Shown piece by piece: positions 1 to 22,941 of a stretch of 53,152 bases of DNA (position 1 is the stretch's first letter; each line of letters opens with the position of its first letter). The translations under genes were made by a program, and so were the position numbers. Location: assembly GCF_016908635.1 (NCBI RefSeq), contig NZ_JAFBEG010000016.1:1-53152 (forward strand). Reading direction: 5' to 3'. This DNA is from Sporohalobacter salinus (GTDB lineage: Bacteria > Bacillota > Halanaerobiia > Halobacteroidales > Acetohalobiaceae). The notes beneath the pieces were generated by a model. That model saw only the letters and a program-made list of their open reading frames with translations. It was not told the origin of the DNA and made no database searches.

Positions 1-145
1 GTTAAAACTAATCTCAAAATCAAAGTTAGACTTATTAAATGGGTTAAAAACTATGATTTTTTAAGCTCAATTTTCATATCTGCTTAACAGGTTCATTTTT
101 AAATTAAAATATAAGGATTAAACGATATAATTTATTTTAAACAAC

Positions 146-172
146 CTCTCCAGCATAAATAATACCGGAGAG
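146..172 (-). terminator. Probable terminator of the arsR-type gene
   Basis: Inverted repeat CTCTCC/GGAGAG with a 15-nt loop, 35 bases past the stop of the ArsR-family gene. On the minus strand it is followed by a moderately U-rich stretch. The stem is short, so this is a moderate call. I see no gene in bases 1-145. Confidence 0.45.
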
Positions 173-207
173 ATAGTATACTTAACAGCTTTTATATCTG
201 AAATATA

Positions 208-495
208 TTACTCAAACAATACATCAATAATTTTTTGAGCATCTTCCGAAACTACCGAATAATTAATTTCAACTCCATCACGTTCCCCACTAATAATTCC
301 TGCGTTTCTTAATTTAGCTAAATGCTGTGAAACAGTAGACTGCGGCATCTCCATACAACTTTGTATATCAGATACATTACAACTATCCACCTTTAATAAT
401 CTTTTCACAATACATAATCTACTCGGATGCGATAATGCTTTTAAAATTTCTGCCTTAGAATGTAAAAGTTCACTATCTACTTCAATATCCTGCAT
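208..495 (-). CDS. ArsR/SmtB-family transcriptional regulator
   Basis: A 95-residue single-domain winged-helix repressor of ArsR/SmtB type. The family fold is visible: helix ILKALSHPSRLCIVKRLL (about 18-35), recognition region MPQSTVSQHLAKLRNAGII (about 50-68) and the beta-wing SGERDGVEINYSV. Start: ATG preceded by AGGAGG. Cysteines at about residue 28 (LCIV), in DSCNVSDI and in QSCMEM could bind a metal or thiol ligand, but the classic ELCVCDL metal motif is absent, so the inducer cannot be read. It is transcribed alone: 113 bases separate it from rlmD and a terminator-like hairpin follows. Its target may lie left of the window. Confidence 0.85.
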   Translation of the reverse strand: MQDIEVDSELLHSKAEILKALSHPSRLCIVKRLLKVDSCNVSDIQSCMEMPQSTVSQHLAKLRNAGIISGERDGVEINYSVVSEDAQKIIDVLFE

Positions 496-608
496 TCTCT
501 CTATCCTCCTACAATAATCAATTTAATTAACGAATTTTATAATTAAATAAAAATAAATACTATTATCTAAATAATATAATATTCAAATACAATCGTCAAG
601 AATAATAA

Positions 609-1979: not shown

Positions 1980-1994
1980 TATCTATCCTCTCCT

Positions 1995-2801
1995 TTATAT
2001 CTCAATTCCTAATTCAGCTAATAAATCTAGACTATTCTGGCTTAAGACTCTAGCCCGTTCAATTAGACTTAAATCCAACTTTGCCAATTGCTTTATCTCA
2101 TCAATCGGCTTTTTAAGAGGAAAATCAGATCCAAAAAGAACTTTTTCCACTCCATGAGCTTTAATTATTTCAGTCGCTTCCTCAATCGATAAAAAATCTA
2201 AACTACTAGATGTATCAAGATAAAGGTTCTTCCCAACCAAATGTTCTCTAGCTTGCTCCCACATCTGATATCCTCCTAAATGACTAGCAACTACCTTTAA
2301 ATCAGTAAAGTCATTAATTATCTGAGCCAACTTAGCAGGACTACTATAATCTTCTTGATATCCATTTCTATTATCTCCAATATGGAATAAAATTAAAAAT
2401 TCATCTCCAATAGCCTCATACATATCATAAGCTTGTTGAGTCAGAATATCAAATTGCTGCAACTCAGGATGAAGTTTAATACCTTTTATACCATTTTTCT
2501 TTAACCGTTCTAATTCAGCTTCATAATCAGAAAGTCCTGGATGTATTGTTCCAAATTTGATTAACCGTTTACTATCAATCTCTAATAACCAATCATTTAA
2601 TTCAGAAACTCTTTCAGGTTCTACTGCTGCAACATGAATAACTGCTTTATAGAGTTTAGACTCTTTAATTTCCTGTACTAAATCTTCTAATCGCCCTTGA
2701 CTCTCTATCTCTCTTTGATAATACATCTCTAATTTCTTGACTACCTTATCTGCCATTGTATCAGGAAAAGCATGAGTATGGAAATCAATTATTCTTATCA
2801 T
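1995..2801 (-). CDS. Metal-dependent hydrolase, amidohydrolase-2 (TIM-barrel) family
   Basis: A 268-residue protein with the amidohydrolase metal-site pattern: FHTHAFPD at the N-terminus (HxH), GIKGIKLHPELQ (about 108-119), a His in LILFHIGD, ASHLGG, and the C-terminal Asp in LFGSDFPLKKP. This order matches the PF04909 family of decarboxylases and hydrolases. The substrate is unknown. No signal peptide, so cytoplasmic. It lies directly upstream of rlmD with 15 bases between them and probably shares its message, but I see no functional link. TatD-type DNase is less likely because the typical TatD signature is missing. Confidence 0.8.
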   Translation of the reverse strand: MIRIIDFHTHAFPDTMADKVVKKLEMYYQREIESQGRLEDLVQEIKESKLYKAVIHVAAVEPERVSELNDWLLEIDSKRLIKFGTIHPGLSDYEAELERLKKNGIKGIKLHPELQQFDILTQQAYDMYEAIGDEFLILFHIGDNRNGYQEDYSSPAKLAQIINDFTDLKVVASHLGGYQMWEQAREHLVGKNLYLDTSSSLDFLSIEEATEIIKAHGVEKVLFGSDFPLKKPIDEIKQLAKLDLSLIERARVLSQNSLDLLAELGIEI

Positions 2802-2871
2802 CTTTACTCCATCTCCTCTCCACCTATATAATTAGCATAACTTATTTTAATTAATCTTGCAAAATAAAAAT

Positions 2872-2902
2872 AACACTACCCAAGTAGCCTTTAGGTAGTG
2901 TT
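2872..2902 (-). terminator. Terminator of the nifV-like/idh operon
   Basis: Nine-base perfect stem AACACTACC/GGTAGTGTT with a 13-base loop, 27 bases past the dehydrogenase stop. On the minus strand it is followed by a U-rich run (complement of AAAATAAAAAT). Confidence 0.8.
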
Positions 2903-2929
2903 GAATTATATACTATAGCTTAAATCAAG

Positions 2930-3925
2930 TTATAATCTATTTATAATCTCTTCTGTAATCTCAGTGGTAGCCGCTTCTCCCCCCAAATCCTTTGTTAATA
3001 CCTTTCCTTCTGCTAAGATTTCGGCTATAGCATTTTCCACTCTATCAGCAGCTTCAAATTCTTCTAAATGCCGCAGCATCAAAACTCCAGATAATAACAA
3101 CGCAATTGGATTGGCTTTATCCTTACCAGCTATATCAGGAGCGCTGCCATGTACTGCCTCAAAAACAGCTATTTCGTCACCAATGTTAGCTCCTGGTGTT
3201 AAACCTAAACCTCCAATTAATCCTGCTCCAAGATCAGAAATAACATCACCATAGAGATTAGGCATTACTAATACATCATATTCATCTGGATACTGCACCA
3301 ACTGCATACACATATTATCAACAATACGGTCATTAAATTCGATTTCTGGATACTCTTTAGCTACCTCTTTTGCTGTTTCCAAAAATAGCCCATCACTTAA
3401 TTTCATAATATTAGCTTTATGTACTGCCGTTACTAATTTTCGATTTTCACGCTTAGCATATTCAAAAGCTGCTTTAACAATTCTCTTTGAAGCTTTTCGC
3501 GTGATAATCTTAATACTTTCGGCAGCATCTTCACCTACCTCATGTTCAATCCCGGCGTATAAACCTTCGGTATTTTCTCTAAACACTACATAATTAACAT
3601 CCTTAAATTTAGTCGGAGCTCCTTTATAAGTCTTTACTGGACGCAAATTAATATATAAATCTAATTTCTTTCTAATAGCTACATTTACACTTCTAAAACC
3701 ACTTCCAACCGGAGTAGTAATTGGCCCCTTCAATGCCACCTTGTTCTTTCGAACAGAATCTAATACTTTATCTGGTAGAGGAGTACCATACTTATCCATT
3801 ACTCCAGCTCCAGCATTGACTTCTTTCCACTCAATATCTACTCCCACAGCATCAATAACTTTCTGTACTGCTCTTGATACCTCAGGCCCAATTCCATCTC
3901 CTGGAATTAAAGTTACTGTTTCCAT
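2930..3925 (-). CDS. NAD(P)-dependent isocitrate/isopropylmalate-family dehydrogenase, probably isocitrate dehydrogenase
   Basis: Beta-decarboxylating dehydrogenase of 331 residues, the length of short NAD-dependent isocitrate dehydrogenases. Visible motifs: [11 protein letters not shown] at the N-terminus, substrate loop [22 protein letters not shown]-like [12 protein letters not shown], the signature [20 protein letters not shown], and [20 protein letters not shown]. The [13 protein letters not shown] loop favours isocitrate over isopropylmalate; homoisocitrate is a third possibility given the NifV-like enzyme 43 bases upstream. ATG follows a GGGAGGG Shine-Dalgarno. Together with its neighbour the enzyme could supply 2-oxoglutarate for glutamate. 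No aconitase is in the window. Confidence 0.8.
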
Positions 3926-3968
3926 TTATTCTACCCTCCCTGCCGCTAATCATAAGACATTTTTCTTA

Positions 3969-5105
3969 CTACTCCTCTTCTCCTAATTCTTCCTTATAAT
4001 CTTCATATATATACATTAGCTCTTTATCAAAAAGTGATCGCTTAAATTCCACTGCTGTCTTTCTAACTTTAGGCAATAAGTCTTCTGCTTCTTTATCTGT
4101 TAATTTAATACCATACTCTTTGAACTTATTAATAATAGCTTTTTTACCGGAATGTTTGCCGATAACAATTTGACGCTCTAGTCCAACTTCCTCTGGTGTA
4201 AAGACTTCATAAGTAGATGAATTCTTTAAGACGCCATCGGTATGAATACCGGATTCATGAGCAAACATATTAGTCCCTACAATGGCCTTCCAAACCGGCA
4301 ATTCACGAGCAGAAGCACGAGCTACATACTCAGATAGCTGTCTGAAATCTTCTGTAGAAAAGTCCATTTCAACTTCATAAATATGTTTTAACGCCATAAC
4401 AACTTCTTCTAGAGCAGCATTTCCAGCTCTTTCACCTAAACCATTAACAGTAACTCCTACATATTTAGCTCCGCCCTTCACTCCAGCTAAAGCATTAGCC
4501 GCGGCTAAACCAAAATCGTTATGAGTATGCATCTCAATATCGATACCTACTTCATCAATAATATCTTTTACCCGATCACGAATCTCAAAAGGTTCCATAA
4601 CTCCAATAGTATCACAATACCGCAATCTATCAGCTCCAACTTCCTTTGCTTCCTTAGCAAACTTAATTAGAAAATCTCTATCACTACGAGAAGCATCTTC
4701 GGCATTAACTGATACATACAAACCATTCTTTTTAGCAAACTTTACAGCTTCAGTCATATTGGAAAGTACCCAATCTCGGTCCTTCTCTAGCTTATGTTTA
4801 ATATGAATATCTGAAGTAGAAATTGAAATTGCTACTGCATCTACTCCACAATCCAGCGATTCCTTAATATCAGATATAACTGGTCTATTCCAAGCCATAA
4901 TACTGGCATCTAAATCCGCATCAACAATAGTAGTAATCGCTTCTTTCTCATCACCGCCCATTACTGGAATTCCAGCCTCAATCTGATCCACTCCAATCTG
5001 ATCCAATAATTTGGCAATTCTAATCTTTTCTTGATTCGCAAAAACAACTCCTGCTGTCTGTTCTCCATCACGTAATGTAGTATCTACCATCTTAACATCT
5101 TTCAT
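3969..5105 (-). CDS. Homocitrate synthase, NifV type (or Re-citrate synthase)
   Basis: DRE-TIM aldolase-family acyltransferase of 378 residues, matching NifV length. N-terminal signature VDTTLRDGEQTAGVVF, then GIPVMGGDE, metal-binding MHTHNDFGLAAANALAG, and VNGLGERAGNAALEE; the C-terminal half has HESGIHTDG. NifV condenses acetyl-CoA with 2-oxoglutarate to make homocitrate for the nitrogenase cofactor. In some anaerobes relatives of this family act as Re-citrate synthase on oxaloacetate. No nif gene is visible here and the downstream gene looks like isocitrate dehydrogenase, which makes a citrate role worth considering. Preceded by a long leader with an attenuator-like hairpin and a consensus promoter. 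Confidence 0.82.
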   Translation of the reverse strand: MKDVKMVDTTLRDGEQTAGVVFANQEKIRIAKLLDQIGVDQIEAGIPVMGGDEKEAITTIVDADLDASIMAWNRPVISDIKESLDCGVDAVAISISTSDIHIKHKLEKDRDWVLSNMTEAVKFAKKNGLYVSVNAEDASRSDRDFLIKFAKEAKEVGADRLRYCDTIGVMEPFEIRDRVKDIIDEVGIDIEMHTHNDFGLAAANALAGVKGGAKYVGVTVNGLGERAGNAALEEVVMALKHIYEVEMDFSTEDFRQLSEYVARASARELPVWKAIVGTNMFAHESGIHTDGVLKNSSTYEVFTPEEVGLERQIVIGKHSGKKAIINKFKEYGIKLTDKEAEDLLPKVRKTAVEFKRSLFDKELMYIYEDYKEELGEEE

Positions 5106-5174
5106 TAAATCACTTCTCCCTTCTTAATTTTATACACCCAAATGCATATTTTTGCATAATAGATATAAAGAAAA

Positions 5175-5196
5175 ACTCTAAAGTATAATACTCAGA
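5175..5196 (-). promoter_or_regulatory. Attenuator-like hairpin in the nifV-type leader
   Basis: On the minus strand CTCTGAGTAT-T-ATACTTTAGAG folds into a two-part stem (CTCT/AGAG and AGTAT/ATACT with small bulges) followed directly by TTTTTCTTT. It sits 70 bases before the ATG and inside a ~200-base leader, so it could stop transcription before the operon. I found no T-box sequence and no recognised aptamer upstream of it. Confidence 0.4.
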
Positions 5197-5314
5197 GCAA
5201 AGATTAATCAAATAAATTATCTAATTATAGTATATCCCAAGTTTATTTATTACTACTTACTTATGACTCCATACTCGAACTATAAAATAATTATTTTATA
5301 CGATACACGTTTAC

Positions 5315-5344
5315 ATTATACAACTTTTTGCTTTAATTTGTCAA
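5315..5344 (-). promoter_or_regulatory. Consensus promoter of the nifV-like/idh operon
   Basis: Minus strand TTGACA (5339-5344), 18-base spacer, TATAAT (5315-5320). Both boxes are perfect sigma-A matches. Start of transcription is expected near 5308, giving a ~200-base untranslated leader. The interval 5106-5424 otherwise holds only the attenuator-like hairpin and the gat terminator. Confidence 0.75.
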
Positions 5345-5392
5345 ATTCAATTTTACACTATGTATTCACTATATTTACTCTCAAAATCAAAT

Positions 5393-5416
5393 TAGCCCCT
5401 TGATATCAAGGGGCTA
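5393..5416 (-). terminator. Terminator of the gatCAB operon
   Basis: Perfect 24-base palindrome (half-site TAGCCCCTTGAT) beginning 8 bases past the gatB stop. The U tract is weak (ATTTGATTTT), but position and stem strength fit an intrinsic terminator. Confidence 0.7.
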
Positions 5417-5424
5417 GAAAACTA

Positions 5425-6870
5425 TTAATTTAGCTTTTCTTTTAATATATCTTTAGCTAGCTGAGGATTGGCTTTACCTCTAGTAGCCTGCATTACTTGG
5501 CCTACTAAATAACCAATAGCTTGTTCTTTTCCTCCTTGATAATCTGCTACAGCATCAGGATTATCATCAATTATATCATCAATTATATTATCCAATTCTC
5601 CTTCATCACTAATCTGTTTTAATCCCTTGTCTTCAACAATACTCTCTGGATCTTTACCTGTCTTAAACATCTCTTCAAATACTGTTTTAGCAATTTTATT
5701 AGAAATTGTACCATCATCTAATAACTTTAACATTTCTGCTAATCCTGCTGGAGTTATTTCAGCTTCCTCAATTTCTAGATCTCCTTCATTTAAAAGTCGC
5801 ATCATATCTCCCATAACCCAGTTACTGATACTTTTAGGGTCATTATGTTCAGTAACTGTAGCTTCAAAGAAATCAGCAATTGATTTAGAATCGGTTAAAA
5901 CCTGAGCATCATATTCAGGAAGACCTAACTCCTCTACAAATCGATTTCGGCGAACATTAGGAAGTTCTGGAATTGTAGATTCAATTTCTTCTAACCACTC
6001 TTCATCAACTTCTAACGGTACTAAATCCGGCTCTGGAAAGTAGCGATAATCATGAGCTTCTTCTTTTCCCCGCATAGAATAGGTCTTTTCTTCCTCGGTA
6101 TCCCAAGTTCTAGTTTCCTGAATTACTTCCTTACCAGATTCTAAGACTTTTTTCTGCCGTTTAATTTCATAAGTTAATGCTTTTTCAATTGCTTTAAAGG
6201 AGTTCATATTTTTAAGCTCTGTTTTAGTACCCAATCCTTCTTCACCTTTAGGTTTAATGGATGCATTGGCATCACAGCGCAGTGATCCTTCGGCCATATT
6301 ACAATCAGATACTTCCAAATATTCTAAAATACTCTTTAACTTTTTAAGATAAGCAACAGCCTGAGCTGGAGAATTTATATCAGGCTCTGTTACAATCTCA
6401 ATCAACGGCGTTCCTACCCGATTATAATCAACCAAACTACCTTCTGAATCAGTAATAGTTCCATCATGAACTAACTTTCCAGCATCTTCTTCCATATGAA
6501 TTCGATTAATTCCTACTTTAACTGCCTCACCGTCTTCAGGCTCTACATTAATATAACCATTTTCACATAAAGGCAAATCATATTGTGAAATCTGATAAGC
6601 CTTCGGCAAGTCAGGATAAAAATAATTCTTACGGTCAAATTTGCTGAAATCAGCAATATCACAGTTTAAAGCAAGTCCTGCTTTAATTGCATATTCAACA
6701 GCTCTTTTATTTAATACCGGTAGTACCCCTGGTAATCCAAGACAGACAGGACAGGTATGTACATTAGGTTCAGCTCCAAATTCTGTACTACAACTACAGA
6801 ATATTTTAGTATCAGTATCTAACTGAGCATGAACCTCTAATCCGATAGTTATATCATAATCTGTAAGCAT
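5425..6870 (-). CDS. gatB: Asp-tRNA(Asn)/Glu-tRNA(Gln) amidotransferase subunit B
   Basis: tRNA-binding and kinase subunit of GatCAB, which converts Glu-tRNA(Gln) and Asp-tRNA(Asn) to the amide forms. At 481 residues it is normal length. Signature segments: [17 protein letters not shown] near the N-terminus with zinc-type cysteines ([13 protein letters not shown]), [33 protein letters not shown], and a C-terminal YqeY-like helical domain ending in the tRNA-binding tail ([13 protein letters not shown]). The open frame reaches a GTG at 6885, but the GGAGGTGGAG Shine-Dalgarno is placed for the ATG at 6870, so that start is used. Last gene of the operon, 24 bases after gatA. Confidence 0.95.
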
Positions 6871-6894
6871 TCTCTCCACCTCCACAAAATTAAA

Positions 6895-8352
6895 TTACAG
6901 TTCTGCTCTTTTATTAAAATCGGTATTCTGTTCAAATGTATAAGCAACTTGAATTAACTTCTCTTCAGCAAAGTGATCTCCTAATATCTGTAGCCCAATA
7001 GGTAATCCGTCACTATCAAGCCCACAAGGAATTGAAATCCCAGGCAATCCAGCTAAATTAGCAGGAATTGTACATAAATCAGACATATACATCTGTAATG
7101 GATCATCACTCTTTTCTCCTATTTTAAAAGCAGTAGTCGGAGAAGTAGGTGATAGCAAAACATCATATTCAGCAAAAGCTTCTTCAAAATCCTGTTTAAT
7201 TAAGGTTCTGACCTTCTGAGCTTTAAGATAATAAGCATCATAATAACCAGAACTTAAAGCATAAGTTCCCAACATAATTCTGCGCTGAACTTCATCACCG
7301 AAACCTTCACTTCTAGTTAATTTGAACATATCAATTAAACCATTAGCTTCTTCATTTCGGTAACCATATCTCACTCCATCATAACGAGCTAAATTAGAAC
7401 TAGCTTCTGCTGGAGCAATTAAGTAATAAGTCGGTAATGCATACTCAGTATGAGGTAGCGAAACCTCTTCACAAGTCGCTCCTAATTCTTCTAACTTTTC
7501 GATAGCTGATTGAACAGCTTCCTTTACTTCAGAATCTATTCCTTCTCCTAAATATTCTTTTGGTACTCCAATCTTCATATCAGAGACATCATCTACTAAT
7601 GCTTCCGTAAAGTCAGGTACTTCTCTTTCAACTGAAGTAGAGTCATGTGGATCATGACCACAAAGACAGTTTAGAGCTAAAGCACAATCAGTAACATCTT
7701 GGCTAAAAGGCCCGATCTGATCTAAAGATGATGCAAACGCTACTAAACCATAACGCGAAACAAAACCGTAAGTTGGCTTCATTCCTACTACTCCACATAA
7801 CGAGGCTGGTTGTCTAATAGAACCTCCTGTATCAGAACCCAAAGAAATAATTGCTTCACCAGCAGCAACTGCTGCAGCTGAACCACCGCTGGATCCTCCA
7901 GGTACTCGATCCAAATCCCAAGGATTTTTAGTAATAAAGAATCCTGAATTTTCTGTAGATGATCCCATAGCAAATTCATCTAAATTTGTTTTTCCTGTCA
8001 TTACCGTCCCAGCTTGATTTAGCTTGTCCACTACCGTAGCATTATAAGGCGGTTCAAAATTATGTAAAATCTTAGAAGCACAAGTAGTTTTAACTCCTTC
8101 AGTACACATATTATCCTTTACAGCTACCGGAATTCCTGCTAAAGGATTAATTTCCTCTCCATTTGCTAACTTTTCATCAACTTCCTTTGCTTTCTCCAAT
8201 GCTTCCTCTTTCGTTAATGTTATATATGACTGCACATCATCTTCTACTTCATCAATCCGTTGATAAACAGATTCAGTTATCTCTTGAGCACTAATCTCAC
8301 CTGCTGTTAACTTCTCATTTAATTCATGAGCTGTCAGTTCATATAATTTCAT
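6895..8352 (-). CDS. gatA: Asp-tRNA(Asn)/Glu-tRNA(Gln) amidotransferase subunit A
   Basis: Glutaminase subunit of GatCAB; it releases ammonia from glutamine and passes it to GatB. The amidase-signature triad is visible: Lys in [10 protein letters not shown], the cis-Ser and nucleophile Ser in [14 protein letters not shown] and [16 protein letters not shown]. The downstream GMKPTYG and QIGPFSQDV segments are typical. The start at ATG 8352 (485 residues) follows AAAGGAGGGATTAGA; the longer frame to 8373 lacks a ribosome-binding site. It lies 23 bases after gatC and 24 before gatB. Confidence 0.96.
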
Positions 8353-8375
8353 TCTAATCCCTCCTTTAACCAAAT

Positions 8376-8672
8376 TTACTCGTCATTATCTATAATCTGT
8401 GGCACTTTAAATGAACCGTCCTCACATTCTGGAGCATTCTTTAATGCTTCTTCTCTATCCAGAGACTCTTCAACTTTATCTTCCCGAAAGACATTCTTGA
8501 TCGGCAAAGCATGAGCAGTTGGCTTAACATCTTCTGTATCCAATTCATTTAACTTATCTGCATATTCCAGGATATCATTTAACTGCTCTGTCATTTCTTC
8601 TTTCTTATCTTCATCTAATTCTAATCTTCCCAACATAGCAACTTTATCTACAGTAGCTTCATCTATCTTCAT
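8376..8672 (-). CDS. gatC: Asp-tRNA(Asn)/Glu-tRNA(Gln) amidotransferase subunit C
   Basis: Small subunit that wraps around and stabilises GatA-GatB. The 98 residues begin [19 protein letters not shown], the family N-terminal helix, followed by [19 protein letters not shown] and the C-terminal [15 protein letters not shown] segment. The open frame runs up to 8777, but a TTGCTT-17-TATAAT promoter lies at 8719-8747 and AAAGGGTGG precedes the ATG at 8672, so the upstream part cannot be translated from this promoter. First gene of gatCAB. Confidence 0.95.
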
Positions 8673-8718
8673 TAATTCCACCACCCTTTCCTGAATATAT
8701 ACGCTAACACCTTCTATC

Positions 8719-8747
8719 ATTATAACATAAGCTTTTAATTGAAGCAA
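8719..8747 (-). promoter_or_regulatory. Promoter of gatCAB
   Basis: Minus strand TTGCTT (8742-8747), 17-base spacer and a perfect TATAAT (8719-8724). It lies 47 bases upstream of the gatC ATG and fixes that start. Confidence 0.65.
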
Positions 8748-8855
8748 AAAAGCATACAAAGGAAATAAAGCAATCACAGCAGGTGTTCAGATAATATGAA
8801 ATCTATCCAAATTACTTGTTTAACTACCAAAAATTTAATCAGCTTCAACAGTTAA

Positions 8856-10889
<2,034 letters not shown>

Positions 10890-10963
10890 TTAATCATTTT
10901 AACATTAATTATAAAGGATCTCTAGATAGACAGAAGCCAATAAAATACTAAACAATATTAGTC

Positions 10964-12385
10964 TTATTTTTGGAGATTTATATCTGAATTTTGGTTTAGA
11001 TCTTTATCTTCTCTTTTAAAAAGTGCAAATCCAGTAAATGCATAGATTAATGTAATAACAGGAGCAATAAAAGGTAAAAATGTATATGGAATATATTCAA
11101 GCCCAACATCTAAAACATTCTGTATATAGACTGATACTACTCCCCATGGTAAAACAGAACATCCTAAAGTTGCTGCTGTTTCAAGTGTTCGAGACAAAAC
11201 ATTATTTTTTATATTCATCTCTTTATAAGCTGACTCTAAAGTTCGCCCCGGAATTATCATTGATACCATCATCTCTCCAGTAGCAAAGAGCATCATGTAG
11301 GTAGATAAAAGTGTACTTAGAATTAAGTCTCTAGGCTTCTTTATATATTTCATAAGTGATTTGAGTAATACTTTTAAAACACAAATCTTTTCTAATATAC
11401 CTCCCATGGCAGTACCAGCCATAATTATGGCAACTGTACTCATCATGTTATTTATACCACCCTGAGTAAGGAGGTTATCAATTAGTTCATAACCTGTTTC
11501 AGAAACATAACCATTCGCTGCTACATTAATAATTTCAGAAAAATTAGCTCCCTGAGTAATTACAGCAAAAAGAGCTGCCGTAACAAAACTCGTAGACAAA
11601 GAAATAATAGCTGGTATTTTTAAAATTGATAAAATAATCATTAATAAAGGTGGAATTAAAGTTATAAGACTAATATTAAAATTATTTTGTAAACAACTTA
11701 AGATTTTTTCTACAGTTTGTAAATCAACGCTATTTGTCATATATACCTTTCCAATCAAGCCATAAAGAATTATACTGATTGTAACTGTGGGAATAGAAAC
11801 ATAGAGCATAGAACTAATATGATCAAATAAATCTGTATCACTCATTGCTGCAGCTAAATTTGTAGAGTCTGACATAGGAGACATTTTATCTCCAAACATA
11901 GAACCAGATACTATAGCTCCAGCCGTAATACTCGCTGGAATACCAAGACCTTTAGCTACTCCCATTAAAACTATGCCTATTGTGGCTATTGTCCCAAATG
12001 AACTTCCAATTAATAAAGAAGTTACTGTCCCAAGTAGAAAACTAATAGGCAAAAATATTTGTGGTGTAAGCAGCTTTAATCCATAAAACACCATAGTCTG
12101 AATAGTTCCGCCTAAAACCCAAGTTCCTATAACCATACCAATAATTATGAGTATTATACATGCTCCCAATCCATTTTTTATTCCTTCAATTAATCCTTTC
12201 TCTATATCCTGCCATTCATAGCCAAGATAAATACCGAAAATAGCAGCTGTCATTGCTCCTAAAACTAATGCTGTTTCTAAAACAAGAGCATTAATAAGAC
12301 AAATTAAAATCACTGCTATAACGGTTAATAATATAAATGCTGCCTCTTTAATCGTTGGTTCTCCTTGATTCTTTCTTCCTACCAT
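10964..12385 (-). CDS. nhaC: Na+/H+ antiporter, NhaC family
   Basis: Integral membrane antiporter of 473 residues with about a dozen hydrophobic segments. Family-specific stretches: LIGSSFGTIATIGIVLMGVAK, then SGSMFGDKMSPMSDSTNLAA, with the conserved polar run in the membrane, and MLFATGEMMVSMIIPGR near the C-terminus. NhaC proteins export sodium in exchange for protons; related members exchange malate/lactate or other ions, so the exact substrate is open. A sodium exporter fits a salt-adapted anaerobe. ATG preceded by GAGGGGAC. It lies 86 bases upstream of ligA and may be part of an accessory block that starts here. Confidence 0.88.
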   Translation of the reverse strand: MVGRKNQGEPTIKEAAFILLTVIAVILICLINALVLETALVLGAMTAAIFGIYLGYEWQDIEKGLIEGIKNGLGACIILIIIGMVIGTWVLGGTIQTMVFYGLKLLTPQIFLPISFLLGTVTSLLIGSSFGTIATIGIVLMGVAKGLGIPASITAGAIVSGSMFGDKMSPMSDSTNLAAAMSDTDLFDHISSMLYVSIPTVTISIILYGLIGKVYMTNSVDLQTVEKILSCLQNNFNISLITLIPPLLMIILSILKIPAIISLSTSFVTAALFAVITQGANFSEIINVAANGYVSETGYELIDNLLTQGGINNMMSTVAIIMAGTAMGGILEKICVLKVLLKSLMKYIKKPRDLILSTLLSTYMMLFATGEMMVSMIIPGRTLESAYKEMNIKNNVLSRTLETAATLGCSVLPWGVVSVYIQNVLDVGLEYIPYTFLPFIAPVITLIYAFTGFALFKREDKDLNQNSDINLQK

Positions 12386-13452: not shown

Positions 13453-15159
13453 TTAAAATACAAAGCCTGTCTGGAATAGCAGTTTATCATCATAATCATC
13501 TTCAGACGTAACATCCTCATCGTCTATTTTATGTGCCCAGTGAATATTAACAAATACATCTTTATAATTAATATAATAACCTAATCCTATATCCTGCAGA
13601 GTTCTGGGCTCAAAACCAACTGTATTATCAGCCATGTAAGCCCGCCCAAGATCATAAAATAAACTAACTTTGGATGAAACCTTTTTATAATCAGGTAGAT
13701 TATAAAATAATTCAAGATTTAACAAGTAGCCATTCTCTGCACTGTGTTCACTTGTAGGGTAAAGTTTTACTCCATTAGAACCTCCAATTGATAAATCTTC
13801 ACTACCATCAAGATTCTTATTATTCAATGCATATTGACATTCCAGTGAACTATCTAGTGACCACTTACTATTAAATCTCAACTTCTCCTGGAGTGACAAA
13901 TTAACTTTTGAATATTGACCATTAGTATCAGCTCCAGCTTCATCTTCTGCTTTATCGGCAGCATCTTCAAAATCTAAATCTCCTACAGTAAAGTCAAATG
14001 TAACTTTAGTTTGACTGTTCCAATTATATACTCGCTTATTATTTGTAAAAGATATTCCCGTATTAATTGACTCAGCTTCTTTCTCAGTCTTGTCTGCAAT
14101 TAACCTTATTTCATCTACCATATCTCTTTTAGAAAGATTAACAAAAGCCTCTATATTACTCAATCTTGTTCTTTTCACAGGATAAGTAAAGTTAAGCTCT
14201 AAATTCTCTGAGCTACCTACTGCGTCTAAATCTTCATATTCTTCACTTAATTCATACTCAGTATCAGAATAAGCTACCTCCCCTCTCAGTCCAGAAGCAC
14301 TTAAAGGCAGAGAATAGGATAAACGATAATTTTCTATTCCACTTTTATCTGTTAACATTGATTGTACAGATAATTTATCTCCTAGCTTAAAAGGAGAGTT
14401 AATATTAAAAGCCCCACTTAATCTGTTTTCCCCTGTATATTCTCCTCCGTAATTATCAGCGACAACATAACCACTAAATCGCTTGGTAGCTTTAGTAGTT
14501 ATAGCAAAATCACTTGTCCCTAATTCCTCCCCAGGCATTACATCTGCTTGAGTAACACGAGCACCAGGAGTGTCATTGATTATCAACATTGCTCGTTCAA
14601 TTGTATTAACACTGATAATATTCTCATCTTTAATAGAATCAAGCATAGCTTGTACTATGGAATCTTTTATAAATGAATCATTAGTAAGCTTAAACTTTCC
14701 GTATTGTCCTTCGATTACTGCAATAGTTAAGATATCATTCTTCATCTCCTGTTTAGGAATATAAGCTCTAGCTACAAAGTAACCTTGTTCTCTATAATAT
14801 TTTGTAATAACAGTAGCAGCCTCTTCCATTTCAGCTAGAGACAATTTTTTCTTTACAAACTCATCAGTATTAACAAGCTTTTCGAGTTTGTCTGAACTAA
14901 TAACGTGATTACCTTCAACTTTTATCTTTTTAACTAACACCTTCTTACCGTCCAGGTTTTTCATTGGCTCTTTAATCGGCTTTTCTTCAATAGTAGGAAT
15001 CTCATTTTCCTTTTTCTTTTTCTCAATCTTATCATCAGGTTCTGTCTCTTTAAGCACATCACCAATATTAGGTTGCTTCTTTGCATATAAATTTGTACTT
15101 ATTATCGACATACTTAATATTATACAAACTAATATCACTAAGTAGAATTTCTTTGTCAT
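13453..15159 (-). CDS. TpsB outer-membrane translocator, ShlB/FhaC/HecB family
   Basis: Outer-membrane beta-barrel of a two-partner secretion system that moves the TpsA proteins across the outer membrane. The 568 residues show a signal peptide (MTKKFYLVILVCIILSMSII.. to about residue 27) and a charged linker typical of the plug helix region. POTRA1 follows (about 73-153, with YYREQGYFVARAYIPKQ), then POTRA2 (about 154-228), then a 16-strand-type barrel ending in LLFQTGFVF, with the C-terminal Phe expected of outer-membrane barrels. The conserved loop-6 VRGY motif reads GVKLYP here, so the family Arg is Lys. ATG follows AAAAGGAGGG. It is 17 bases downstream of tpsA1, in one operon with both TpsA genes. 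Confidence 0.93.
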   Translation of the reverse strand: MTKKFYLVILVCIILSMSIISTNLYAKKQPNIGDVLKETEPDDKIEKKKKENEIPTIEEKPIKEPMKNLDGKKVLVKKIKVEGNHVISSDKLEKLVNTDEFVKKKLSLAEMEEAATVITKYYREQGYFVARAYIPKQEMKNDILTIAVIEGQYGKFKLTNDSFIKDSIVQAMLDSIKDENIISVNTIERAMLIINDTPGARVTQADVMPGEELGTSDFAITTKATKRFSGYVVADNYGGEYTGENRLSGAFNINSPFKLGDKLSVQSMLTDKSGIENYRLSYSLPLSASGLRGEVAYSDTEYELSEEYEDLDAVGSSENLELNFTYPVKRTRLSNIEAFVNLSKRDMVDEIRLIADKTEKEAESINTGISFTNNKRVYNWNSQTKVTFDFTVGDLDFEDAADKAEDEAGADTNGQYSKVNLSLQEKLRFNSKWSLDSSLECQYALNNKNLDGSEDLSIGGSNGVKLYPTSEHSAENGYLLNLELFYNLPDYKKVSSKVSLFYDLGRAYMADNTVGFEPRTLQDIGLGYYINYKDVFVNIHWAHKIDDEDVTSEDDYDDKLLFQTGFVF

Positions 15160-15176: not shown

Positions 15177-18100
15177 TTATTGGTCATCAACAATATAGAA
15201 TATTTGGTCGATACCTTCAGGTAAACTGACTCCGCCATCTACAATCTGAACCAATGAATCTTCAGAAACAGAAACTCGTACTTCATCAACTACTACATCT
15301 TCGGTATTATCTTTTTTACTCTCCTGCTCTCTTCTCTCATCCTCTTTTTCAAACTGACTAGCTTGAGTCTGATTAGTTTGAGATTGATTCTGTTCACTTT
15401 CCTTAGATTTAATCTCACTTAAGTATATCTTATCAGTCGGCTCATCCTTTACAGGAGTTGAACTCAAATTAGGACTACTCTGTCTTTGTCTGTTAATATT
15501 AATCTGTTGATTTGAGTCATTCGAAGATATCAGAGCTACTATCTCATCCGATTGAGGAGAATTTTCATTAGCTGTTTTTCTTGTATTAGCAATAACTTTC
15601 TCTACTGTTTGATCAGACTGAGTAGCGTCCTCTGACTCTACAACATCAGAACTTATCTTCCAAGTTGCATCGCCGTCACCCAAGACAGGATAATCACTTT
15701 CTACAGCACTATCCTCTACAATATTCCAAGCGGCTTTCTTAAAGAAATCAACATCCTGAAGTTGATCTGTAGTTCTGCCATAATTATCTTCATCTTTCAT
15801 ATTGGGATTTATATCTTTATTATAGTAGCTGTCATTGATGGTATTGTCGCCTGCTTGATAACCAACAAGTCCTCCGATATTATCCCCGTCACTGTTGACT
15901 TTACTTATAGTATAAGAGTTTTTAATAGCTTCGTTTCTCAAGGTTCCAACTAATCCTCCAACTTTATCAGTTCCAGTAACCGTGCCGGTAGAGTAGCTAT
16001 TTTCTATTGTCCTAGGCCCAGTATTCATAAATCCAACAAGTCCTCCAACTTGCATATTTCCTATAACATTATTAGTAGCATAAGAGGTTTTTATTGTACC
16101 TAGATTTGAAGCACCTACTAATCCGCCGACATAATTCGCCTTTCCTGCATCCACTGTTCCGATAGCATAACTGTTATCAATAGTATAATCAAATCCGGCT
16201 CCGACAAGTCCTCCAAAATATTGAGGTTTAGTTTCAAGGTCTGCCATATTTACTATAGCTGTAGAATAACTATTTTCTATTTTACTTTTCTGTGTAAGAC
16301 CAATAAGTCCACCTACATAGGCCCCTCCTGTAACATCATTAGTAGCATAACTATTTTTTATAGTAGAAGAAAACAATAATCCAACAAGTCCTCCAAGCCC
16401 CTTTCCACTTGCCTGACTAATTACTTCAGCATTCGAATAACTATCGTTTATTCTACTATTATTCTTCATACCACCAACTAAACCACCGACTTTATCTTGA
16501 CCAGTCACTGAACCACTAGTTGAACTTCCACTAATAATAGATGTTAACGACGTACCTACTAATCCTCCTGTTCCACCTGCTCCTCCGAAGTAAGATGTTC
16601 CTTCTACCTTTAGTTCTTTGGCATGTACATTTTTAATATCGGTTCCAATGGCTTTGCCTACTAAAGACCCTACATTATATAAACCATCTATTGTAAAACC
16701 TGTCGTATTAAGATCTTTAATCTCTACATCTTCAGCATAACCAAATAAACCTCTATTTGCCAGTATTCGCTCCTCTTTTAAATTCTTTATTTTCAAATTA
16801 CTAAGCTGCTGTTGATTACCATCAAAATCTGACAAAAGTACTGGAATAAAATAATCTTGCTTACTAGGAAAATCGTGATTAGCAAAATCAATATTTGATT
16901 TTAATCTAAATTTGTATCCTTCTTCCATTGAAAAACCCAAAAAGTCCTTCATATTATCAATACCTGAAATAAGATATGCTCCATCATCTGCTATATTAAA
17001 ATAATCATCTACATTTAGTTTCTTGTCGTTTATCCAATCATTAAATTGATTTTCATAAATACCATAAGCAGTAACCTTCTTCTCTCCATTAATCATTCCC
17101 TGATCAATATTATAAAAACTATTTTCTATTGCAGCATAATTATTATCTTCAACACTACCAACCAATCCTCCAATTTCTTTATTACCCGTAACATCTCCCG
17201 TTGCATAACTATCACTAATAGAGGCACCTGATTTTACAGTACCAACTAAACCTCCTGCCTGTTTCACTCCATTTCCAATAACATTTCCTGTTGCATAACT
17301 ATTCTCTATAGAACCACTTAACTCACCAACCAAACCACCAATATTCAGAATTTCACCAGTTATAGTTCCAGTCGCATAGCTGTCTTTAATTACCCCATTG
17401 CCTACATTCTTACCAACTAAGCCTCCAATATTACTCTCAGTACCTGTTACATCTACAGTTGAATAACTATTCTTAATTATAGTACCAGACTCAGTTTTTC
17501 CTATCAATCCTCCTACTTGATTTCCCCCCGTAATAGATGACCCTTCTATATAACAATTAATTATAGTTGAGTTATGACTAGTACCAATTAATCCACCAAC
17601 TCGATAACCTAAATTTTTCATACTTACATTATCTAAACCAATATTTTTTATGGTTGCTCCCGTAACTTCACCAAATAATCCTATATCATATTTATTTCCA
17701 ATATGAAGTTTTTTTATTGTATGATCAAGACCATCAAAAATTCCTTTAAAGTGTCCCTTCTCATCTATTCCGAGAGGAATAAACCCCTCATGATTCTCAG
17801 AGGACCATGTTGAAGTATTAGAAGCATCAATATCTGCTCCCAAAACATAATTACCATCTAAATTACCTTTAATCCCCTGTAGATCATTACCTGTTGTCGA
17901 ACCTTGATTACCTAGGTCAGTAATTACTTGATAAATCTTTTCATTACCGTCACTACCTAGTTTAGTAAAGAAGTTTTCTCCTGCTTCTAAATTAATCGGA
18001 GCATTAACTTCATAAGTAGCAGTATTACCGCTATTTACTGCTCCCTGTCCGTAGTATAATGCTAATTGTCCTCCTCCATTAGCCGTAATAAATTGATTAA

Positions 18101-19268
18101 TAATAATATCTTTGTAGGCGTCAAGAGTCAGTTTATTAGCAGTCGACCAAGTAATAGGTGCATCAACTATAATATCACCTTCACTACCACTTTTATTAGC
18201 ATCTAGGATTGTCACATCACTACTACCATTACCAGCAGTATTAACCGTTACATCCCCGTTGCTTAAACCACTTTCTATATTCCCAGCTAAAGTGCTATCA
18301 ATCGTCACATTCACCGGATCAATCAACCAGTGCCCACTTATTATCTCTGCATCCTTAGTAATATTAAACTTTTTTCCACTTGTTTCAATAAAACCTTCTC
18401 CTTTGGCTGTTGTAAGTTTCCCTCCAACATTAGCTGTTCCACCATGAGCAAAAATCTCTATCTTTCCTTCATTCTTTTCACCTGTTACATCTGCTATTGT
18501 TTGGGCTTCAACTATTCCTTCATTATTTACTACACCTTTTAATAATTCGTCTACTGCATTGGTAGTTAAATAAACTTTACCGCCATTGGCTCTGATGGCT
18601 TCTTTATTCTCCACTAAAGCATTCAGTTCACCTTTCTCAACTCTCAAATTAACCAATGAATTTCCATTCAAATTCAAGCTGAACTCTTTTCCGCCTTTTA
18701 GATGAACTTCGCCTAATTCGGCTTTGATCAGACCTTTGTTAATTACTTCTTTACCTAATAAAGCAGCATAACCAGAATTTTTTATATTGATTCTACCTTT
18801 ATTAATTACTCCTTCTTCACTAGAACCCTTAAAATTATAATTTCCTTCCATAAAATCTTGGTTATTTAGCTCTTTAGTGCTAGCAATAAGACCTGAAGTA
18901 TTCACTGATGCATCTTTACCGAAAAGTACTCCATTACTATTTAATACCCAAACCTGACCATTAGCATTTAAGGCACCATTAATAACACTTCGTTCATTTC
19001 CAATCACTCTATTTAGAGTGATTGAATTAACCCCCGGCTGGTTAAAGTTAACCATTTCATCTGCATTGACATCAAAACTCTGCCAGTTAATTGCTGCTTT
19101 GTCAGTAGACTGATTAATGTCTGTAGTGTTTTCCTGATGATTAATCTCTGCCTTTCCAGCAGTAACCTCTCCGCCTTTCGGTGCTGCATTAATTCTTCCA
19201 GCAAATGCAAATAAAAGAAGTAACACAATTAAAATTAATCTAAATTTAGCCCCTTTAAATAAATTCAT
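15177..19268 (-). CDS. TpsA1: filamentous-hemagglutinin-type exoprotein with GLUG repeats
   Basis: Secreted partner of the adjacent TpsB, 1363 residues. A signal peptide ends near INA/APKGG (about residue 29). The TPS recognition domain follows (about 30-270), with INWQSFDVNADEMVNFNQP, LNRVIGNERSVINGAL, and QVWVLNSNGVLFG in place of the usual NPNGI. After residue ~316 comes a distinct passenger: a short beta-rich part, then about 16 GLUG-type repeats of the form (V/I)GGL(V/I)G roughly 28-40 residues apart (about 550-1140). They form two blocks (6 and 10) separated by ~150 residues of unrelated sequence. A low-complexity polar linker leads to a tail ending in GVSLPEGIDQIFYI. The protein is expected on or outside the cell surface; adhesion is the usual role. 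ATG follows GAGGGGGG. Confidence 0.92.
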   Translation of the reverse strand: MNLFKGAKFRLILIVLLLLFAFAGRINAAPKGGEVTAGKAEINHQENTTDINQSTDKAAINWQSFDVNADEMVNFNQPGVNSITLNRVIGNERSVINGALNANGQVWVLNSNGVLFGKDASVNTSGLIASTKELNNQDFMEGNYNFKGSSEEGVINKGRINIKNSGYAALLGKEVINKGLIKAELGEVHLKGGKEFSLNLNGNSLVNLRVEKGELNALVENKEAIRANGGKVYLTTNAVDELLKGVVNNEGIVEAQTIADVTGEKNEGKIEIFAHGGTANVGGKLTTAKGEGFIETSGKKFNITKDAEIISGHWLIDPVNVTIDSTLAGNIESGLSNGDVTVNTAGNGSSDVTILDANKSGSEGDIIVDAPITWSTANKLTLDAYKDIIINQFITANGGGQLALYYGQGAVNSGNTATYEVNAPINLEAGENFFTKLGSDGNEKIYQVITDLGNQGSTTGNDLQGIKGNLDGNYVLGADIDASNTSTWSSENHEGFIPLGIDEKGHFKGIFDGLDHTIKKLHIGNKYDIGLFGEVTGATIKNIGLDNVSMKNLGYRVGGLIGTSHNSTIINCYIEGSSITGGNQVGGLIGKTESGTIIKNSYSTVDVTGTESNIGGLVGKNVGNGVIKDSYATGTITGEILNIGGLVGELSGSIENSYATGNVIGNGVKQAGGLVGTVKSGASISDSYATGDVTGNKEIGGLVGSVEDNNYAAIENSFYNIDQGMINGEKKVTAYGIYENQFNDWINDKKLNVDDYFNIADDGAYLISGIDNMKDFLGFSMEEGYKFRLKSNIDFANHDFPSKQDYFIPVLLSDFDGNQQQLSNLKIKNLKEERILANRGLFGYAEDVEIKDLNTTGFTIDGLYNVGSLVGKAIGTDIKNVHAKELKVEGTSYFGGAGGTGGLVGTSLTSIISGSSTSGSVTGQDKVGGLVGGMKNNSRINDSYSNAEVISQASGKGLGGLVGLLFSSTIKNSYATNDVTGGAYVGGLIGLTQKSKIENSYSTAIVNMADLETKPQYFGGLVGAGFDYTIDNSYAIGTVDAGKANYVGGLVGASNLGTIKTSYATNNVIGNMQVGGLVGFMNTGPRTIENSYSTGTVTGTDKVGGLVGTLRNEAIKNSYTISKVNSDGDNIGGLVGYQAGDNTINDSYYNKDINPNMKDEDNYGRTTDQLQDVDFFKKAAWNIVEDSAVESDYPVLGDGDATWKISSDVVESEDATQSDQTVEKVIANTRKTANENSPQSDEIVALISSNDSNQQININRQRQSSPNLSSTPVKDEPTDKIYLSEIKSKESEQNQSQTNQTQASQFEKEDERREQESKKDNTEDVVVDEVRVSVSEDSLVQIVDGGVSLPEGIDQIFYIVDDQ
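15850..17620 (-). repeat. GLUG-type tandem repeat array inside tpsA1
   Basis: About 16 imperfect repeats coding for I.NSY(A/S)T..VTG...(V/I)GGLVG. DNA of successive copies has drifted, so the repeat is clear in protein and weaker in DNA. The array splits into 17600-17160 and 16690-15850, with non-repeat sequence between (including FSMEEGYKFRLKSNIDFA). Confidence 0.75.
18327..19268 (-). repeat. Near-identical duplicated TPS domain, copy 1 (tpsA1 head)
   Basis: Matches 21667-22608 without a single gap (constant offset 3340). I count eight base differences in 942 positions. Identity stops abruptly at codon ~316 on one side and a few bases upstream of the start codon, just after the shared Shine-Dalgarno, on the other. 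Confidence 0.9.
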
Positions 19269-19314
19269 AATATCCCCCCCTCATTTAAAATTACATCCTA
19301 ATTTTTTCTTTTTA

Positions 19315-22300
19315 TTATTTATTGATAATATAGAATATTTGGTCAATACCCTCTGGTAGACTAACTCCGCCATTCACAATCTTAACCAATGAATCTTTGG
19401 AAACAGAAACCCGAACTTCCTGAACTACCACATCTTTAGTTTTACTGTTTTCACCTCTCTGGGATTGATTCTTTTGATATTGTTTCTTTGAAAACTGACT
19501 ATTCTGTCTCTGATCTGACTTAATTTCACTCAAGTATACTTTCTTAGTAGTTTCTTCCTTTATCGGTGTCGATGTTAAAGTTAAATTCGCTTCTCTTTGG
19601 CTGCTAATTTCAGGCTGTTTACTCTTTATACCTGAATATACAGAAACTACTCTCTCATCTATTGGAGAATTACTTTTATTAGTTATCTTACTTGCCTCTG
19701 AGGTAATATTATCAACTGTTCTATCCGCCAAAATATACAGCCTACCTTCTTTAAAGGTAACATTATAATTATCATTAAATTCTCCATCATTAATAATAGG
19801 ATATCCTTCTTTATTTACATCCTTATTTAGCTTTCTAACTAAATCAACTCCAAGATCATCATTATTAATAATACTTCCCTTCGCAATACTATAAGTTAAT
19901 TTTGGATCTCTTTCACCATAAAGTTTTTCCTTATCATCAACTGCTACTGTTACTGATCTTGGATTAATTTTTAACCTTCCGTTTTTAAAGGTAATATTAT
20001 AATTATCAGATGATAAACCTTGAGGAATAATTGTATATTGACCAGCATTTACTGCTCCCTGAGAGTCTCCACTATATGACAAGCTTCCTTCAAGTACTTC
20101 TGAACTCTCTCCAGATACAAAACCTGAATATTCTACCCCATTACCACCATTGTAACTATCACCGTTATAAACTTTAGTATAATCTTTAGCTGTTACAAGC
20201 AGGTTAGCTTTATTAATGGTAACACTACCTTTTTGATTTCCAGAATCTGCTACAGTATAGTCTTGATTGTTAAAACTAATAAGTAAATCAGAGTATTTCC
20301 CAGCTTCTGTAAAACCAGTCACTTCACTACCATTATATTTAATTACATAATCTGTTCCCAGTTCTAAATTATCATATTCTGATCCAAAAATGCCTTTACT
20401 AGAGTATAGATCCTTTAAATAATAAGGATCACCTTTGTATTCGCCAGCTATAACATCACCTAAATAATACTCTAATGTTGTTACATCGGGTTCTGTAGAA
20501 CCAGTTGCTGTAGAATCATCAACTTGATTTACTGTATCAGGTTTGATATCAAAAGCATATAAAGCTTGATCTGCTGTAGTGGGACTAACTATGTTTACAC
20601 TGTCAGTTTGATCAGAAAAAGTTCCCGTTTTTGGAGTACTTGCTGTATTTGCAGGTCTATTATTATTCCATTTCTGAGCATTCCCCCATAAATTGAGTAT
20701 TCCTGTACCATTTTTAGTCAAGCCATAGTCTCCACCACCTTCACCTGTAGTACCAATAATTGGTGCTTTTATATCGCTATCCTCACCCGCAAAAAAAGTT
20801 AAAGTCCCATTTCTAATCATTAAACTATCACCTTCAAAAAGCACATAACCATTACTACCAATTAATTTACTTGATTCAGTTGATGTAAGCCCATATTGAT
20901 CATAACCATCACCAGCATAACCTTTGATAATAACATTTCCCGTATTTGATTTTATATAAGAGTTACTCTCTATTGTTACTCCAGAACTAGCAACTGACCA
21001 AAAATAATCAGAACTTGTTCCCCCATAACCTTCAATAGTAATATCTCCATCTCCCCCGGTAATTATTGAACCATATTTTATCTGCATTCCCCAATTTGTT
21101 TGACTAGCATTTGTATTACCTTTACCTTTAATTGTAATATTTCCTCCAACAGAAGTCCCAGGAATTGTACTATCAGCTGTCCCAGAAGCATTTCCGGTAG
21201 CATCAAGTTTAGCTCCAATCTTAACCCCACCTTTATTAGAATTTGAATTAGCTTCAGAAGCAACGGCATAGCCAGATGCTTCTAAATCACCACCACCTAT
21301 AATTATATCTCCACCATAAGTAATTATATCTCCTTTAATTAGTACATCTCCTAAAATACTTTCGTCATTACCAGCAAATGCTCTAGATGCTAAAACAACA
21401 TTTAATGGACTACCTGAACTACCTTTAATATTACTATAATTTAAAATAATATCTCTATGTGCTGCTAAAGTAAGTTCAGTTTCACTACCGCTACTTTTAA
21501 TAATATCAGCATTTATTGTTATGTCTCCGCTACCAGATGTTTCGCCACTACTAGTATCAGGATTATTATTCCCTTCTGTTGTAATAGTAACATCAGCAGA
21601 TTCTAATGCATCCCCAATTGTATTAGCTAAAGTAGTCCCAATAGTTATATCCACTGGGTCAATTAGCCAGTGCCCACTTATTATCTTTGCATCCTTAGTA
21701 ATATTAAACTTTTTTCCACTTGTTTCAATAAAACCTTCTCCTTTGGCTGTTGTAAGTTTCCCTCCAACATTAGCTGTTCCACCATGAGCAAAAATCTCTA
21801 CCTTTCCTTCATTCTTTTCACCTGTTACATCTGCTATTGTTTGGGCTTCAACTATTCCTTCATTATTTACTACACCTTTTAATAATTCGTCTACTGCATT
21901 GGTAGTTAAATAAACTTTACCGCCATTGGCTCTGATGGCTTCTTTATTCTCCACTAAAGCATTCAGTTCACCTTTCTCAACTCTCAAATTAACCAATGAA
22001 TTTCCATTCAAATTCAAGCTAAACTCTTTTCCGCCTTTTAGATGAACTTCGCCTAATTCGGCTTTGATCAGACCTTTGTTAATTACTTCTTTACCTAATA
22101 AAGCAGCATAACCAGAATTTTTTATATTGATTCTACCTTTATTAATTACTCCTTCTTCACTAGAACCCTTAAAATTATAATTTCCTTCCATAAAATCTTG
22201 GTTATTTAGCTCTTTAGTGCTAGCAATAAGACCTGAAGTATTCACTGATGCATCTTTACCGAAAAGTACTCCATTACTATTTAATACCCAAACCTGACCA

Positions 22301-22608
22301 TTAGCATTTAAGGCACCATTAATAACACTTCGTTCATTTCCAATCACTCTATTTAGAGTGATTGAATTAACCCCCGGCTGGTTAAAGTTAACCATTTCAT
22401 CTGCATTGACATCAAAACTCTGCCAGTTAATTGCTGCTTTGTCAGTAGACTGATTAATGTCTGTAGTGTTTTGCTGGTGATTAATCTCTGCCTTTCCAGC
22501 AGTAACCTCTCCACCTTTCGGTGCTGCATTAATTCTTCCAGCAAATGCAAATAAAAGAAGTAACACAATTAAAATTAATCTAAATTTATCCCCTTTAAAT
22601 AAATTCAA
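19315..22608 (-). CDS. TpsA2: filamentous-hemagglutinin-type exoprotein with YDG/MBG-type repeats
   Basis: Second secreted partner of the same TpsB, 1097 residues. Signal peptide and TPS domain (about 1-315) differ from TpsA1 by only a few residues (GDKF for GAKF, NHQQ for NHQE). The passenger then differs: a beta-helix-like part rich in GGDI/GNITIKG (about 320-660), followed by KANLLVTAKDYTKVYNGD (about 803, YDG-type) and PRSVTVAVDDKEKLYGERD (about 885, MBG-type). The tail DSLVKIVNGGVSLPEGIDQIFYI matches that of TpsA1. The start codon reads TTG where the paralogue has ATG at the same position behind the same GGGGGG Shine-Dalgarno, so translation may be weaker. Forty-six bases separate it from tpsA1. 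Confidence 0.9.
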   Translation of the reverse strand: MNLFKGDKFRLILIVLLLLFAFAGRINAAPKGGEVTAGKAEINHQQNTTDINQSTDKAAINWQSFDVNADEMVNFNQPGVNSITLNRVIGNERSVINGALNANGQVWVLNSNGVLFGKDASVNTSGLIASTKELNNQDFMEGNYNFKGSSEEGVINKGRINIKNSGYAALLGKEVINKGLIKAELGEVHLKGGKEFSLNLNGNSLVNLRVEKGELNALVENKEAIRANGGKVYLTTNAVDELLKGVVNNEGIVEAQTIADVTGEKNEGKVEIFAHGGTANVGGKLTTAKGEGFIETSGKKFNITKDAKIISGHWLIDPVDITIGTTLANTIGDALESADVTITTEGNNNPDTSSGETSGSGDITINADIIKSSGSETELTLAAHRDIILNYSNIKGSSGSPLNVVLASRAFAGNDESILGDVLIKGDIITYGGDIIIGGGDLEASGYAVASEANSNSNKGGVKIGAKLDATGNASGTADSTIPGTSVGGNITIKGKGNTNASQTNWGMQIKYGSIITGGDGDITIEGYGGTSSDYFWSVASSGVTIESNSYIKSNTGNVIIKGYAGDGYDQYGLTSTESSKLIGSNGYVLFEGDSLMIRNGTLTFFAGEDSDIKAPIIGTTGEGGGDYGLTKNGTGILNLWGNAQKWNNNRPANTASTPKTGTFSDQTDSVNIVSPTTADQALYAFDIKPDTVNQVDDSTATGSTEPDVTTLEYYLGDVIAGEYKGDPYYLKDLYSSKGIFGSEYDNLELGTDYVIKYNGSEVTGFTEAGKYSDLLISFNNQDYTVADSGNQKGSVTINKANLLVTAKDYTKVYNGDSYNGGNGVEYSGFVSGESSEVLEGSLSYSGDSQGAVNAGQYTIIPQGLSSDNYNITFKNGRLKINPRSVTVAVDDKEKLYGERDPKLTYSIAKGSIINNDDLGVDLVRKLNKDVNKEGYPIINDGEFNDNYNVTFKEGRLYILADRTVDNITSEASKITNKSNSPIDERVVSVYSGIKSKQPEISSQREANLTLTSTPIKEETTKKVYLSEIKSDQRQNSQFSKKQYQKNQSQRGENSKTKDVVVQEVRVSVSKDSLVKIVNGGVSLPEGIDQIFYIINK
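21667..22608 (-). repeat. Near-identical duplicated TPS domain, copy 2 (tpsA2 head)
   Basis: Partner of 18327-19268. The protein level stays homologous beyond the end of the repeat (SGHWLIDP then weakly similar text). The sharp fall in DNA identity therefore looks like a conversion boundary rather than the end of common ancestry. Confidence 0.9.
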
Positions 22609-22941
22609 AATATCCCCCCTTTTTTTTAATTAATTGATCCACTAGTTGGCTAATAAAGTCTTAAAATTAAAAATATTTTTAGTATAATTATCTATTCATA
22701 TGTCTTTTCAATTATCTTTTTACCTACTAACATTAAATTTATTACACCTACTAACGATTAGCTCTGTTTATCATTAAAATCCCTTTATCTATATAATAGT
22801 CTTCTAGTTAAATATTAGCCACAAATTAATTAATATTTCTAATTTTCTAAGCAATTACCTCTAAAAATGTTTGTTACTATTTTCAAATCCCTACTCAACC
22901 TACATTAAGTAGCTTTAATTTCATTAATATTTTATAATTTG

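Follow-up and report, generated by a model that had tools for sequence, protein, structure and literature searches.

We describe here a pair of tandem tpsA genes of Sporohalobacter salinus that share an almost identical head in front of different passengers. The window, that is, the whole 53,152-nt stretch of DNA that was analysed, contains what we read as a two-partner (type Vb) secretion operon encoding two different large surface proteins, TpsA-A and TpsA-B, and a single outer-membrane transporter, TpsB. The best explanation, to which we give a probability of about 0.7 as a whole, is that tpsA-A and tpsA-B are old tandem paralogues whose heads were recently homogenised by gene conversion. 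An earlier note on this DNA had proposed a recent homogenisation of heads between divergent tpsA genes with one tpsB, and the silent sites together with a divergent homologous flank and tail bear this out.

All three genes lie on the minus strand. The tpsA-A ORF (19315..22608) has a TTG start and encodes a 1097-aa TpsA with a signal peptide and a TPS domain (Pfam TPS, E=2e-32; also NCBIfam adhes_NPXG), a central passenger with MBG_2 repeats (E=6e-21) and a conserved C-terminal tail. The tpsA-B ORF (15177..19268) starts with ATG and encodes a 1363-aa TpsA with a signal peptide, a TPS domain (E=1e-32), a GLUG passenger (E=7e-53) and a C-terminal tail of the same type; it also matches Peptidase_M26_N (E=7e-12), which is the N-terminal region of that family and not its catalytic part. 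The passengers had been named GLUG versus YDG/MBG, and Pfam places GLUG in the 1363-aa and MBG_2 in the 1097-aa protein, while no YDG model was reported. The third gene, tpsB (13453..15159), encodes a ShlB/FhaC-type outer-membrane transporter with a POTRA_2 domain (Pfam ShlB E=1e-29, POTRA_2 E=4e-16). Since the intergenic gaps are only 46 nt (tpsA-A to tpsA-B) and 17 nt (tpsA-B to tpsB), the genes are probably organised as a single operon in the order A-B-tpsB. The assignment to two-partner (type Vb) secretion follows from a TPS domain behind a signal peptide in both TpsA proteins (Pfam E ~1e-32), the signal peptides being read by eye from the sequence, and from a linked TpsB with POTRA and a FhaC/ShlB barrel. 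A stretch of 507 nt without a long ORF precedes tpsA-A; a promoter scan gave 59 sites against a chance level of 46 +/- 7, which is no credible promoter, and none is claimed.

Positions 18327-19268 and 21667-22608, which are the 5' ends of the two ORFs, align without gaps over 942 nt with exactly 8 mismatches, as had been counted before. The identity extends over the 11 nt directly before both start codons (GGGGGGATATT), which include the ribosome-binding site, giving a full shared tract of 953 nt that covers these 11 nt and codons 1-314 (21667..22619 in gene A and 18327..19279 in gene B, both minus strand). The abrupt loss of identity that the earlier note placed at codon ~316 was confirmed and can be set slightly upstream: identity ends with codon 314 (Trp), and codon 315, Leu in both genes, reads CTA in A but TTG in B. 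The two genes share 99.2% of their nucleotides in codons 1-314 and 58.6% in codons 315-351 (Fisher P = 3e-41). The edge of the tract lies inside a WLIDP motif, the remainder of which (18310..18326 in gene B, minus strand) has the same residues in A and B with partly different codons. WLIDP or WLLDP is present at this position in many aligned relatives, and Trp 314 is nearly invariant among them. The 5' homology of A and B stops at the ribosome-binding site, and a diverged homologous flank is found on the 3' side only.

In a structure model of residues 1-420 of TpsA-B, the head is predicted with confidence (mean pLDDT 87) as a beta-helix of approximately residues 31-318, after which the chain forms a short capping helix (325-335), passes through a disordered linker and enters another stack of strands. 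Among solved structures, the model is matched best by the secretion domains of EtpA, HxuA and HMW1. As the modelled helix ends near residue 318 and the tract stops at 314, the end of the tract is predicted to fall within the final strand of the N-terminal TPS beta-helix.

The age of the homogenisation can be judged from silent sites. At fourfold-degenerate sites, A and B have an identity of 98% in the head but of 48% in the last 110 residues. Where both genes encode the same residue, the codon is also the same at 306 of 309 positions in the head, compared with 32 of 51 in the homologous flanking stretches (P = 3e-15). The pattern expected of gene conversion, few silent differences beside a homologous flank that has diverged at silent sites, was thus found on the 3' side of the tract. 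Between this genome and the sister species, which we take to be Acetohalobium arabaticum (G001), the genes ligA, pcrA and gatB have a fourfold identity of only 56-64%, and the homogenisation is therefore far younger than the split from A. arabaticum. One might suppose that no recombination took place and that strong selection for recognition by TpsB keeps the heads identical, the head being the conserved part of TpsA among the aligned relatives. Selection alone is nevertheless excluded as the cause, since the silent sites are nearly identical too. In addition, where other genomes of the phylum contain several copies, the heads differ in both protein and silent sites: the other within-genome TPS heads compared show a fourfold identity of 30-60% (for the longer comparisons, 41-67% aa identity and 30-51% fourfold identity), and the tandem tpsA arrays of two genomes of the same phylum (G282 and G326) have diverged heads. 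We consider this explanation hardly conceivable.

The few differences within the head are informative as well. Those that can be polarised are found on both copies, B having changed at codons 32 and 196 and A at codons 270 and 308. This is in line with a single copying event after which each copy gained a small number of mutations, and no trace of an older head is left. They give no direction, and the donor copy cannot be named. Five of the eight differences lie in the first 46 codons; as an indication of more than one tract, this clustering was not significant (P = 0.057).

Beyond the tract, the two genes appear to be related by an older paralogy. The weak protein homology noted past the breakpoint was confirmed over ~90 residues, in which A and B are 39% identical and each is 36-37% identical to the orthologue of a genome that we take to be Halanaerobium praevalens (G212). 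The last ~170 residues (15177..15692 in TpsA-B, ending in SLVQIVDGGVSLPEGIDQIFY, and 19315..19812 in TpsA-A, both minus strand) are likewise homologous, at 45% aa identity (E = 6e-32), a homology absent from the earlier note. Because the tails are homologous at this level and the distance after the breakpoint is about equal to that from H. praevalens, A and B are probably old paralogues. In agreement, over 105 residues of the tail A and B are 57% identical to each other versus 32-34% to H. praevalens, and this greater mutual closeness points to a paralogy that existed in this lineage beforehand. The last 38 codons of A and B have 84% nucleotide identity, but their fourfold sites agree at just 10 of 17; an older conversion of the tail, considered from these codons, is a possibility at most. 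The tails carry a C-terminal motif, SLxxIVxGGVxLPxGxxQxFY (15177-15292 and 19315-19430), which may serve to retain or anchor the proteins. A similar form occurs in H. praevalens (locus L038, 6158-6250) and in a betaproteobacterial locus (L057), and a somewhat similar ending in the tandem TpsA of G282.

The most probable origin of this arrangement is homologous recombination between the tandem copies without exchange of flanks, that is, gene conversion, by which one copy would have received the other's ribosome-binding site, signal peptide and TPS recognition domain in place of its own. The conversion tract would have stopped inside WLIDP, where nucleotide similarity now runs out. Both proteins would then be made, recognised and exported by this TpsB, the alike heads may keep both of them matched to it, and the passengers may function as adhesin-like surface fibres.

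The main competitor of gene conversion is that a single-tpsA operon gained a foreign passenger and tail by recombination within or beside the head, leaving a duplicated head before the new passenger. A head duplication beside a newly acquired passenger predicts nearly the same pattern, and the one-sided diverged flank, with a 5' homology that ends at the ribosome-binding site, counts against conversion. The A passenger also has a GC3 of 0.126, lower than that of the heads and the B passenger (0.19-0.23), and the single-gene operon of H. praevalens with its GLUG passenger is an obvious starting state. This route has to be weighed against a 3' side of the junction that is homologous and in frame, and against tails that are mutually closer than either is to H. 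praevalens, which suggests that the paralogy came before. We regard it as possible, though clearly less probable than conversion between resident paralogues. It could also be thought that the assembly placed one head sequence twice or formed a chimera, the genome being a draft of 54 contigs. Such an artefact is quite unlikely here: there are 8 differences between the two heads, their flanks are unlike on either side, and both are interior to one 53-kb contig. The caution is justified by an apparent second near-identical pair (L069/L072) that proved to be an artefactual palindrome.

This apparent pair was the only other one with near-identical heads among the best 80 of the 158 relatives matched by the alignment query, which were those kept for comparison, and it was rejected. 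Its contig is a perfect 12,232-nt palindrome with two mirrored tpsA genes (1-12232 of JAAOZX010000453.1, from a Comamonadaceae MAG), almost certainly an assembly artefact. The pair described here is seen in one genome only, which weakens the case for conversion. Whole-genome searches with the head DNA, PF05860 and both full proteins returned only tpsA-A and tpsA-B, and both head-DNA matches sit on one contig. Scans of genome contigs and viral contigs with a single head gave no matches. The TPS domain was found in 1 of 13 genomes of the order, this one, and thus not in the sister species A. arabaticum; a TPS-domain match occurs in 6 of 59 genomes of the class, which makes two-partner secretion rare in this class of diderm Firmicutes. 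H. praevalens has a single tpsA with a GLUG-like passenger and a linked tpsB (~65% aa identity in the head and 57% in TpsB). Recombinants at the same breakpoint, which the earlier note had proposed to look for, were absent among the relatives compared, and this one close orthologue has a single tpsA.

The layout had been interpreted as cassette-like surface variation. Such variation would call for a stock of alternatives or for indications of switching, and our results do not support it: the whole-genome searches gave neither a further head nor a passenger copy lacking one, the two genes are intact and point the same way, and nothing at the locus speaks for switching between passengers. As the shared head feeds one TpsB, co-secretion rather than switching is to be expected, and the simplest reading of the sequence would be that two proteins are exported side by side by one transporter. 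Two related readings were also discarded. A contact-dependent inhibition locus (CdiBA/I) is not compatible with gaps of 46 and 17 nt, the lack of an immunity-like gene and C-termini that are conserved and not variable. The silent-cassette arrangement of tpsA/tpsC was rejected because the whole-genome searches return no headless tpsA-like copy.

The heads of HMW1A and HMW2A of Haemophilus influenzae are nearly identical. These proteins are a paralogous TpsA pair with divergent binding domains (36% identical), and gene conversion between their loci has been described (PMC8262952). The present pair resembles them in the N-terminal secretion part and the differing binding regions; unlike hmw1ABC and hmw2ABC, which are two separate loci, its two genes share an apparent operon with a single tpsB. 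In Bordetella bronchiseptica, fhaS is not known to be adjacent to fhaB in an operon of two tpsA genes. FhaB and FhaS are highly homologous TpsA paralogues (PMC11077949), and secretion of more than one TpsA by one TpsB is stated in a passage of a review that cites the FhaS paper of Julio and Cotter 2005 (PMC5422565). The passengers here are of another type than those of FhaB/FhaS. For meningococcal tpsA with tpsC cassettes, block-wise recombination was reported and gene conversion proposed, 3'-end exchange being rare (PMC3848433). In the meningococcal system it is the 3' end that is swapped with headless cassettes, and immunity genes follow these. The present genes have the 5' head in common, the searches gave no headless cassettes, and the gaps leave no space for an immunity gene. 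The tpsA-tpsB pair of H. praevalens (L038) is orthologous to the present genes, with a GLUG-like passenger and the same tail motif, but has one tpsA only and its tpsB lies upstream of tpsA. Mosaics of this kind are already known from HMW1/HMW2, FhaB/FhaS and, for the 3' end, meningococcal tpsA/tpsC, and the present one is ordinary in kind. It differs in that both tpsA genes lie together with a single tpsB in an apparent operon, and in its unusual host, a salt-loving diderm Firmicute.

In this sense, the locus provides a clean natural case in which recombination separates the export-recognition part of TpsA from its passengers, with codon 314 and the WLIDP motif as a natural edge for a secretion module. 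It also leads to the prediction that both TpsA proteins use the same transporter. A broader idea, which we hold to be doubtful, is that the head acts as an export module homogenised again and again, so that within this lineage any passenger gaining it by conversion up to WLIDP becomes a client of the single TpsB; if true, the operon would be a platform for adding surface proteins.

Additionally, the ribosome-binding sites contain G runs of 6 in A and 7 in B (22609-22627 and 19269-19285), and together with the TTG start of gene A versus the ATG of gene B this raises the possibility that translation of the two genes differs. The TPS operon is part of a 20-kb block (approximately 10930-31100) between ligA and pcrA, which also contains a Na+/H+ antiporter gene, a small ORF, an AcrB/HlyD/OEP efflux operon, a TetR regulator and a cyclopropane synthetase-like gene. 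In A. arabaticum, ligA and pcrA are spaced by 124 nt, with a matching region upstream of ligA and a similar hairpin after pcrA.
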